Source of the DNA: Nanobdellota archaeon
GTDB taxonomy: Archaea; Nanobdellota; Nanobdellia; Parvarchaeales; Parvarchaeaceae
Assembly (NCBI GenBank): GCA_021818905.1
Contig: JAKASS010000001.1
Span: 79,648 to 117,547, forward strand
Reading direction: 5' to 3'
Length of the DNA: 37,900 nt
Every line of letters starts with the position of its first letter. Position 1 is the first letter of the stretch. The notes below the pieces were generated by a model, which was not told the origin of the DNA, did no database searches, and was given only the letters and a program-made list of their open reading frames with translations. A program made the position numbers and the translations under genes. Below are positions 4,231 to 7,015 of this stretch, piece by piece.

Positions 4231-5160
4231 TTACCCAGACGCTGCGATTTTCGTCTTTATCTGGTTGACTACGTTCTGTACGTTATCTTGCCCGCCTATG
4301 GCTGCTAAACCGGCTGCCGAAAGACCCGCCATCCCGCCAAGCGCGCCCATACCTTGCATAAATTGCATAGGTAATACTATCTTTGAAGAACTTGATTCTC
4401 CCATCTGTTTTAACGCCTGTAGGTATAGATACATCATAGACCTGTCATCCAAAGCATGTCCTCCTTCACCTACAGCTTCCATCACTATTTTCTGTGCATC
4501 AGCTTTGAATCTCTGTGCTTGAAGAAGGTTCGCGGCTATCTCTGGCTGTTGCATAGCTGTGATTACCTCGTCTGGAGGTGCTATGGTTCTTATCTGCACG
4601 GTTGGAACGTCGATTCCCCACTTCCATGTAAGGTGCCTTATCGAGTCTGCCAAAACGTCGTTGAGTTTATCTAAATTGCCAAAAAGTTGTCTCATCGTGA
4701 ACGAAGAAATCGCATTTCTTATCGCCGATTGAACTAGATTGCTAAGCCCCTGGCCATAATTGTCTATCTGTAATGTAGCTTTCTCCGGATCTGTTATCTG
4801 ATAATATATCGTGCCTTCAAGGCCCAATTTTATGTCATCCTGGGTAAATACTTCCTGTGAACTTATGTCCATCATCTTGACACGGACATCAACCCTTTGA
4901 TATTCTGACTCAAATCCTGGAACGACAATCACCCAACCTGGACCTACAACCCTGTTGAATTTGCCTAAACGGAATATTATACCCCTCTCAAACTGGCTGT
5001 ATTGTTTAACGGAAAACACTAAAAATATGATAAGTAATATAACAAATATCAATATGTAGACCGCAGGCAGCAATGCTGGGGCGGCGACAACGACAAACAC
5101 CACCAATAAAAGCAATACAACGATGCCTAACAATACCCCCCAAAATTCGCCTGGACTCAT
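4231..5160 (-). CDS. SPFH/stomatin (slipin)-like membrane protein
   Basis: N-terminal TM segments; QFERGIIFRLGKFNRVVGPGWVIVVPGF; VRVKMMDISSQEVFTQDDIKLGLEGTIYYQI; typical slipin core. Confidence 0.9.
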   Translation of the reverse strand: MSPGEFWGVLLGIVVLLLLVVFVVVAAPALLPAVYILIFVILLIIFLVFSVKQYSQFERGIIFRLGKFNRVVGPGWVIVVPGFESEYQRVDVRVKMMDISSQEVFTQDDIKLGLEGTIYYQITDPEKATLQIDNYGQGLSNLVQSAIRNAISSFTMRQLFGNLDKLNDVLADSIRHLTWKWGIDVPTVQIRTIAPPDEVITAMQQPEIAANLLQAQRFKADAQKIVMEAVGEGGHALDDRSMMYLYLQALKQMGESSSSKIVLPMQFMQGMGALGGMAGLSAAGLAAIGGQDNVQNVVNQIKTKIAASG

Positions 5161-5253: not shown

Positions 5254-6309
5254 ATGGGTTATCTTAGAAACTATAGAGACACACTATATATGATAATTTT
5301 TAGTGCCGCTACAGCAGGTTCTAATCGTCCCGCGCTCGAAAACGCGGTGTTAAAGCTGGCCGCAAAAGACGGTAAAAAACTAAAAATCATAAATTTCATC
5401 GATGAGATGATAAAAAGCGCAAAAGACCTGAATAAATTTATAAGTCCTGCGACGCTCCCAAATCTAGACATAAAAACGCTTGAAATCTTGAAAAAGAGCG
5501 CTTTCCATAACATACGCGACCAGATAAAGGAAGCCCCTTCTTACGATTATCTTATAGACGGACATATGTCATTTTGGTGGAAAAGTGGGCCAATAAATCT
5601 TTTGAACGTCAACGATTTTAATGAGGTAACTCCGGATTTTTTTATAACGGTAATCTCCATGCCGGAAGACGTGCTGAAGTCGCTCAGCAGCAAAAAAGAA
5701 TGGATTGACAAGGACATAGATAGCTATGAGATAGCTATCTGGTCAGAGCTTGAAATATACACGACGGATCTCATAAGCGAGGCGCTTAATAAAAAGAATT
5801 ATCTGATTGCGGTAGGAGAAGACCCGCATACGCTTTATGATCTTATGTACGCCCCGCACAAGCCTAAGGTTTACATAAGTTTCAGCATGGAACACCGGGA
5901 TACGAGCTATGACCGGCTTGACAAGTTCATAGGGAAATTGAAGAAGCATTCAATAGTTTTCAACCCGCGTAAACTAGACATAGGCGCCTATCACCAAGTT
6001 GCGGATCAAAGATTAAAAGCGATAATATTCAATCAGACGGTTAGAAGGGATTACCATCTTATTGACCAGTCTGATCTGGTTGTAATACACATGTCGACGC
6101 TAGTTTATTCTAGTGGCGTGGATAGCGAAAGGATGCATGCACATACCAATGGAAAGCCGGTTTTGCTCTATTTCCCATTCGAAAGATACAGTCCGTTCAC
6201 CCCATACTTCGTTGACAAGATGTACAAAGATGAAAATGAGATAATAAAAGACGTCGCTAAGATCTCAAAAGATGCAATCGCAAGCGGCAGGAAAAGATCT
6301 AAACAATAA
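5254..6309 (+). CDS. Two-domain protein: degenerate archaeal adenylate-kinase-like (AdkA-like) N-domain fused to nucleoside 2-deoxyribosyltransferase-like C-domain
   Basis: N-term MIIFSAATAGSNRPALENA in P-loop position without GKT; LKIINFIDEM...YDYLIDGHMSFWW layout like AdkA; C-term RRDYHLIDQSDLVVIHM...SSGVDSERMHAHTNGKPVLLYFP like NDT families. Confidence 0.6.
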   Translation: MGYLRNYRDTLYMIIFSAATAGSNRPALENAVLKLAAKDGKKLKIINFIDEMIKSAKDLNKFISPATLPNLDIKTLEILKKSAFHNIRDQIKEAPSYDYLIDGHMSFWWKSGPINLLNVNDFNEVTPDFFITVISMPEDVLKSLSSKKEWIDKDIDSYEIAIWSELEIYTTDLISEALNKKNYLIAVGEDPHTLYDLMYAPHKPKVYISFSMEHRDTSYDRLDKFIGKLKKHSIVFNPRKLDIGAYHQVADQRLKAIIFNQTVRRDYHLIDQSDLVVIHMSTLVYSSGVDSERMHAHTNGKPVLLYFPFERYSPFTPYFVDKMYKDENEIIKDVAKISKDAIASGRKRSKQ

Positions 6310-7015
6310 TAAGATCTGTGCTTAGCCTTCTAGTTAGTTTAGCATATCTCATCAACCCGTTCTTTCTTATCACATCCGTGCTGCCGATATATCTGTTAAA
6401 TTTTGGGAAGGCTATGCCGTATCTTACTTCCGATTCTTTATACCTCGTTTTCGGAAGTTTGATGTCAAAAAGGGACCAGCAGTCTTTCTTGTATACGACA
6501 CCATTATTGTCTACGGTGGTAACCGAGGGATGCAAGTGCCCGAAACACAAAGTTTTTACCTTCGACGCTACATCTTTTGAAGGTAATGTGTGCCCGTGCA
6601 GGAAACCCAGATCCTTGTATACGAATTCGTTTAAGAGCTTTACATTCTCTAGTCTATTTGTAAGCTTGAAAAGCCCGCCGTCGTGGTTTCCTTTGGTTAT
6701 TATTATCTCTTCAAATTTTGAGGACAGCCTCGCCAAAACCGTAAAAAGAATGCCTCCTTCTCTGGGCGAAATCTCGGTATAACCCGACCTTATATCACCC
6801 AACATTATAAGCTTCTTAGAACCCAAGGATAAGATTTCCTTTGTAAGTTCTTCTGTCTTGCTATGTACATTGTAACCCTTCATGTTTAGTTCTTCTTCGA
6901 AGCCGAGATGTAAATCACCTATTATAGCATATTCATCCATTAAACCGGCCCCGAGGTTTTTCTTTATTTTAAACGGTATATTGTCTATTTCCACAATTCT
7001 ATATGAAAACCGCAT
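6299..7015 (-). CDS. Calcineurin-like metallophosphoesterase
   Basis: IIGDLHLGFEEEL, MLGDIRSG, ITKGNHDGG, FLHGHTLP, CFGHLHPS. Confidence 0.88.
   Translation of the reverse strand: MRFSYRIVEIDNIPFKIKKNLGAGLMDEYAIIGDLHLGFEEELNMKGYNVHSKTEELTKEILSLGSKKLIMLGDIRSGYTEISPREGGILFTVLARLSSKFEEIIITKGNHDGGLFKLTNRLENVKLLNEFVYKDLGFLHGHTLPSKDVASKVKTLCFGHLHPSVTTVDNNGVVYKKDCWSLFDIKLPKTRYKESEVRYGIAFPKFNRYIGSTDVIRKNGLMRYAKLTRRLSTDLIIV

Follow-up and report, generated by a model that had tools for sequence, protein, structure and literature searches.

A putative deoxynucleotide N-hydrolase joined to a degenerate adenylate-kinase-like domain in an ultrasmall archaeon

What can a protein do that joins a disabled nucleotide kinase to a second nucleotide-handling domain, in an archaeon that is probably tiny and host-dependent? 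The question is raised by a gene in the window, the whole stretch of 37,900 nt that was analysed (G000:C4:79648-117547), part of a Parvarchaeota/Nanoarchaeia-type genome of 945 kb that is 100% complete. Nucleotide synthesis is reported to be missing from Parvarchaeota and other DPANN archaea, which have to rely on nucleotides that they scavenge; for Parvarchaeota, the absence of de novo synthesis is stated in the available passages of one study (PMC5864196). These passages also note a parvarchaeal deoxyribose-phosphate aldolase (DeoC) as a source of acetaldehyde and name no source for its substrate. The fusion family considered here, undescribed in the open-access literature text searched, is a candidate for the enzyme supplying that substrate. 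The protein is probably a 2'-deoxynucleoside-5'-monophosphate (dNMP) N-hydrolase from the DNPH1/NDT superfamily that carries a non-catalytic domain of kinase origin, and its use to salvage or eat DNA is the best reading of the evidence. We infer the reaction, the preference for a deoxy sugar and a 5'-phosphate, and the choice of hydrolysis over transfer, as well as what the pseudokinase domain does; the pathway is testable with one recombinant protein.

The sequence-only reading placed the gene on the forward strand at 5254-6309. Its frame, strand and motifs stand and its start does not: since homology among orthologues begins at Met13 of the reported ORF, and a TAA lies immediately 5' of that ATG in orthologues L005-L009, the CDS is taken to start at 5290, and residues are numbered from there. 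The upstream codons, to judge from the orthologue alignments, are probably not translated. The gene and its neighbours are as follows.

5254..5289, forward strand: 12 codons upstream of the true start, coding not conserved in orthologues
5290..6309, forward strand: corrected fusion CDS, 339 aa, with homology from Met13 of the reported ORF
4231..5160, reverse strand: stomatin/SPFH gene, divergent from the fusion gene (context only)
6299..7015, reverse strand: calcineurin-like phosphoesterase gene, convergent, sharing 11 nt with the end of the CDS (context only)

The divergent stomatin gene pointed out earlier is present, but the association does not hold, as a fumarase-like gene occupies that place in other members of the genus; a functional tie between the two genes was dropped because the neighbour is not conserved. 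The frame is not a chance one. Full-length homologs persist in 21 of the 28 genomes of the genus and, against the two closest orthologues, dN is ~0.04-0.05 in both halves with dS ~2 (near saturation). With dN so far below dS, even granting the near saturation of dS, the dead kinase domain is also under selection.

The N-terminal half had been read as an archaeal adenylate kinase (AdkA) fold without catalysis, and both parts of that claim are borne out. Its features are listed here.

5290..5847, forward strand: AdkA-like P-loop-fold domain, residues 1-186 (AAA_17, PDB profile, Foldseek)
5302..5328, forward strand: degenerate P-loop SAATAGSNR, residues 5-13, aligned with GVPGVGKTS of an intact AdkA of the same class
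5554..5580, forward strand: IDGHMSFWW, remnant of the AdkA DTH followed by the family-invariant F95-x-W97 (alignments A1 and A3)
5740..5754, forward strand: WSELE in the former kinase domain, with W151 (15/16) and E155 (16/16) conserved in the alignment

Pfam AAA_17 is matched above its curated cut-off (28.4 versus 27 bits, E 2.3e-6), and a family profile searched against the PDB matches the archaeal adenylate kinase 1ki9 (E 1e-9). The AlphaFold model (pLDDT 77, pTM 0.82) retrieves archaeal AdkA in Foldseek with E 3e-9 and TM 0.75-0.82 by target length. Compared with AdkA (1ki9, 6ln3; NF003122), the fold, the order of elements and the D-x-H remnant are shared, but the score of 23.5 bits falls far below the 155-bit cut-off of NCBIfam NF003122. 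Alignment with intact AdkA proteins of the same class (GVPGVGKTS...DEIRKKL...AIKRIKE...LDTH...RRLRDIQIRGRD) indicates what has gone: the Lys and Thr of the P-loop, and the AMP-site and LID arginines at positions aligned with the DEIR, AIKR and RR..RGRD (LID) segments; the D-x-H position is retained. F95-x-W97, W151 and E155, invariant or nearly so, are gains relative to AdkA. In this streamlined genome a nucleotide kinase has clearly become a non-catalytic domain, and in a sister lineage some members still possess the ATP-binding loop.

The distribution of the family, looked for across genomes of one DPANN class as the earlier reading had suggested, bears on when the loop was lost. Among the 378 genomes sampled from the class, 15 more, outside the genus, have homologs (two being contig-end fragments or partial), spread patchily over other families, and a second genome draw adds five close members. 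The gene tree splits the family with full support into subfamily A, which includes the fusion protein, and sister subfamily B (G378, G411, G421, G142 and G081), with both domains and the S-x-G-x-x-x-E motif. Walker A is present in three of five subfamily B members and in no member of subfamily A. Given this split, the P-loop was probably lost inside an older fusion, the loss being complete in subfamily A. Homologs with an intact GKT loop, which the sequence-only reading would have taken to imply an ordinary kinase, thus occur, but only in this remote sister subfamily; they do not make the protein an ordinary kinase because the LID arginines are missing there as well (by eye). The subfamily B loci are L166:1357-2490, L167:1881-3137, L168:4861-6033, L171 and L172, and PEP-synthase-like genes adjoin L168 and L171 (by eye); L171 and L172 are among those with Walker A. 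Two other frames were set aside: a second match in the window's own genome (C18:15857) is a long protein with a sequence unlike the fusion, and a 335-aa N-terminal extension of the frame in G445 looks like a spurious open frame.

The C-terminal half had been assigned to the NDT superfamily, with the nucleophilic Glu retained at its expected position; the domain modelled alone agrees, and the Glu is invariant. Its features are these.

5851..6306, forward strand: NDT/DNPH1-fold domain, residues 188-339 (Foldseek to NDT 7o62 and DNPH1 8rpt)
5872..5874, forward strand: Tyr195, invariant in the alignment, counterpart of DNPH1 Tyr24 and NDT Tyr7
6037..6051, forward strand: TVRRD, with Asp254 invariant in the alignment, counterpart of DNPH1 Asp80 (general acid)
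6109..6129, forward strand: SSGVDSE, with Ser274 at the phosphate-binding position and invariant Glu280 at that of the nucleophile (alignment)
6190..6198, forward strand: SPF, with P302-F303 invariant in the alignment and Ser301 a candidate second phosphate contact, by comparison with DNPH1 Ser128'

Foldseek with the C-domain model, whose confidence is moderate (pLDDT 68), returns in order NDT 7o62 (E 2e-5), YtoQ and human DNPH1 8rpt, the last being a weaker match than 7o62 (E 2.8e-4, TM 0.54-0.63, ~17% identity). Nuc_deoxyrib_tr (PF05014) stays below its cut-off for the fusion protein (17.9 versus 28.8 bits) and is matched at E<=1 by 10 of 16 family members. As a PDB profile search with the C-domain alone gave nothing significant, with only a weak NDT match (E 1.1), the assignment is one of predicted fold, motif and weak Pfam match.

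Residues specify the chemistry further. In alignment A3, which comprises 16 divergent family members, Tyr195, Asp254 and Glu280 are present in all 16 and occupy the positions of the DNPH1 catalytic triad Y24-D80-E104 (PMC10603095; PMC12751057). The residue six before the nucleophilic Glu (Glu-6) is Ser in 14 of 16 members, Thr in one, Ala in one and Asp in none. It is Ser98 in DNPH1 (PMC10603095) and Ser97 in MilB, both in contact with phosphate. In the three nucleoside transferases read (1f8x, 1s2d and 6evs), Glu-6 is Asp, the D92 of the Lactobacillus enzyme; this Asp is lost in 4hx9, a designed phosphodeoxyribosyltransferase. Across these sequences the Glu-6 residue separates nucleoside from nucleotide enzymes. 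The substitution F17Y switches MilB from CMP to dCMP; if Phe17 lies at the position of the triad Tyr, as we take it to do, the invariant Tyr of the family would indicate a deoxyribonucleotide substrate.

The comparison with known systems follows from these features. DNPH1 (Rcl) shares the fold, the triad and the Ser six before the nucleophile, and its product would feed deoC; unlike DNPH1, the fusion protein is archaeal, joined to an AdkA-derived domain and of predicted activity. NDTs (PF05014; 7o62, 1f8x) share the fold and the catalytic Tyr, Asp and Glu, and one of them is the best structural match, but those read have Asp where the fusion has Ser. The (hydroxymethyl-)CMP N-glycosidases MilB and BlsM share with the fusion protein the pattern S97-x-G99-x-x-x-E103, whose Ser and Gly contact phosphate in MilB. 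DmtZ of Z-DNA phages is likewise an NDT-like 5'-nucleotide enzyme joined to another nucleotide-enzyme domain, but the partner there is often dUTPase-like, and host and context differ. For dnph1, the available passages give hydrolysis of dNMP to base and 2-deoxyribose 5-phosphate (dR5P) as the defining reaction (PMC3834327). By analogy, Glu280 would attack C1' of a dNMP while being positioned by Tyr195, Asp254 would protonate the leaving base, and the 5'-phosphate would be held by Ser274 and perhaps by Ser301 of a partner subunit. The products would be a free base and dR5P: with deoC, dR5P would be split into glyceraldehyde 3-phosphate and acetaldehyde, and with phosphoribosyltransferases the base could be rebuilt into an NMP. 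The AdkA-derived domain, presumably unable to transfer phosphate, would most likely serve as an oligomerization or a nucleotide-binding/regulatory module.

Gene neighbourhoods point in the same direction and, among the options offered earlier, favour nucleotide salvage. In four distant genomes (G038, G359, G243 and G284), spread over three regions of the gene tree, the fusion gene overlaps deoC by 4-8 nt, lying upstream in two and downstream in two, with the junction ATGA in three of the four; the DeoC proteins of these loci keep the lysine motifs VKTSTG and KA(S/A)GG. Loci L068 and L074 are among those with the deoC link. Under a simple model, the chance of four deoC neighbours in 18 loci is ~7e-8. 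Other relatives place the gene among salvage genes: G375 has split and intact fusion copies followed by a cytidine/dCMP deaminase, a DUF7768 protein, a phosphoribosyltransferase and IMP dehydrogenase, G232 has an NDT-like gene and a thymidine kinase gene adjacent, and G447 a cytidine deaminase gene. In the G375 duplication (L076:2967-5084), one copy consists of adjacent N-part and C-part ORFs; because the stretch between them is all N, masked or unassembled, assembly may account for the split. Outside the genus, 10 genomes have both the family and deoC, five the family only, seven deoC only and 328 neither (Fisher p 8e-12; p 4e-11 counted by genus), these p values ignoring shared ancestry and genome size. 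With the second draw, deoC is found in 12 of 20 family genomes. Fusion and deoC operons in relatives thereby suggest how scavengers recycle or feed on DNA.

Several observations weigh against the dNMP N-hydrolase. Its C-domain model is of moderate confidence, and the structure that this model matches best is that of a nucleoside transferase and not DNPH1; in the window's genus, the neighbours (SPFH, fumarase-like and phosphatase-like) are not salvage genes and are uninformative; and, beyond the genus, five of the 15 genomes with the family, some of them incomplete, have no detectable deoC. deoC is absent from the window's own complete genome and present in only about half of the genus genomes, so in the former the free base is probably the wanted product. 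PRTase-fold genes occur in most family genomes. Among the genus genomes tested, those with a clear deoC mostly lack phosphoribosyltransferases (G002, G003, G009, G010, G020 and G025), those without deoC have them (G000, G004, G012, G013 and G024), and G022 has both; the two sinks thus look complementary in the genus, a post hoc observation. At the threshold used, the phosphoribosyltransferase profile PF00156 found nothing in the subclade formed by the first six genomes and G026, which may therefore rely on ready-made nucleotides.

How do other explanations fare? A phosphodeoxyribosyltransferase would swap bases between dNMPs, making one dNMP from another that was scavenged by a cell without de novo synthesis. 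Phosphate-site enzymes of the NDT superfamily can do both reactions, and phage DmtZ hydrolyses dAMP and transfers the dR5P to 2-aminoadenine (PMC12884076). Because deoC is missing from the window's genome, free dR5P would have no known sink there, a point for transfer; the deoC operons, which imply that free dR5P is released, and the strong co-occurrence with deoC argue against it and leave transfer unlikely, though with an appreciable chance. A ribonucleotide N-glycosidase like MilB or BlsM, freeing ribose 5-phosphate for PRPP synthesis, would fit the S-x-G-x-x-x-E motif and the widespread PRTase-fold genes. MilB, however, prefers ribonucleotides and has Phe17 at what we take to be the position of the family's invariant Tyr, and the linked gene, deoC, acts on a deoxy sugar phosphate; such an activity is improbable. 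Hardly better placed, and if anything slightly worse, is the role of human DNPH1 as a sanitizer that removes damaged or unwanted dNMPs with little metabolic flux: the active-site signature agrees and deoC would not be needed, as in the window's genome, but the deoC, deaminase, thymidine kinase, PRTase and IMP dehydrogenase neighbours are explained less well than by salvage.

Two further possibilities carry very little weight. An effector that depletes NAD or nucleotides was among the functions first proposed; it would act in immunity, its pseudokinase domain detecting infection. The C-domain shares a broad fold class with TIR domains and the retron Ec86 effector, which rank low in the fold search. 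The fusion protein matches no PADLOC defence model at E up to 5 and no phage sequence, its relatives sit in salvage-gene operons, and conservation through the genus under strong purifying selection fits an effector poorly; the proposal is given up, lacking PADLOC, phage or gene-context backing, and is very improbable. Least credible is a kinase that still works despite its atypical P-loop and is joined to a helper NDT domain; the Walker A of some subfamily B members is in its favour, but none is found in subfamily A and the kinase arginines are lost, a residue loss for which an ordinary kinase was rejected. What speaks for the dNMP N-hydrolase is the conjunction of the invariant triad and the Ser at Glu-6, the overlap with deoC in both gene orders and the co-occurrence, the salvage-gene neighbours, and the absence of de novo nucleotide synthesis reported in the passages cited for Parvarchaeota (PMC5864196).

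It is tempting to go further and propose a direct route of DNA catabolism, in which the pseudokinase-hydrolase fusion bypasses nucleoside phosphorylase and phosphopentomutase and the dead AdkA domain senses nucleotides or presents the substrate. This extension is tentative, somewhat short of an even chance, and concerns an enzyme known to date from a single class of ultrasmall archaea, the class searched. dR5P may instead come from the bypassed pair of enzymes, PNP-type genes being found in 20 of 28 family genomes; PF00591 (DeoA/AMP phosphorylase) is found in none of the 14 genus genomes searched and in 11 of 14 others.

Some minor observations concern related genes. A standard adenylate kinase was not found in the window's own genome; the best candidate (G000:C5:36809-37357) is a P-loop protein of 182 aa whose GKST loop is intact and which matches AAA_18/AAA_17, with ADK just above the cut-off. 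The same genome has a weak PF05014 match at G000:C20:983-1255 (L083), TAG-interrupted and without a clear ORF. Finally, two genomes from one genus have stand-alone NDT-like genes close to the fusion gene (L170:6662-7372 and L075:5218-5934), which suggests that they are part of a larger nucleotide-salvage island.
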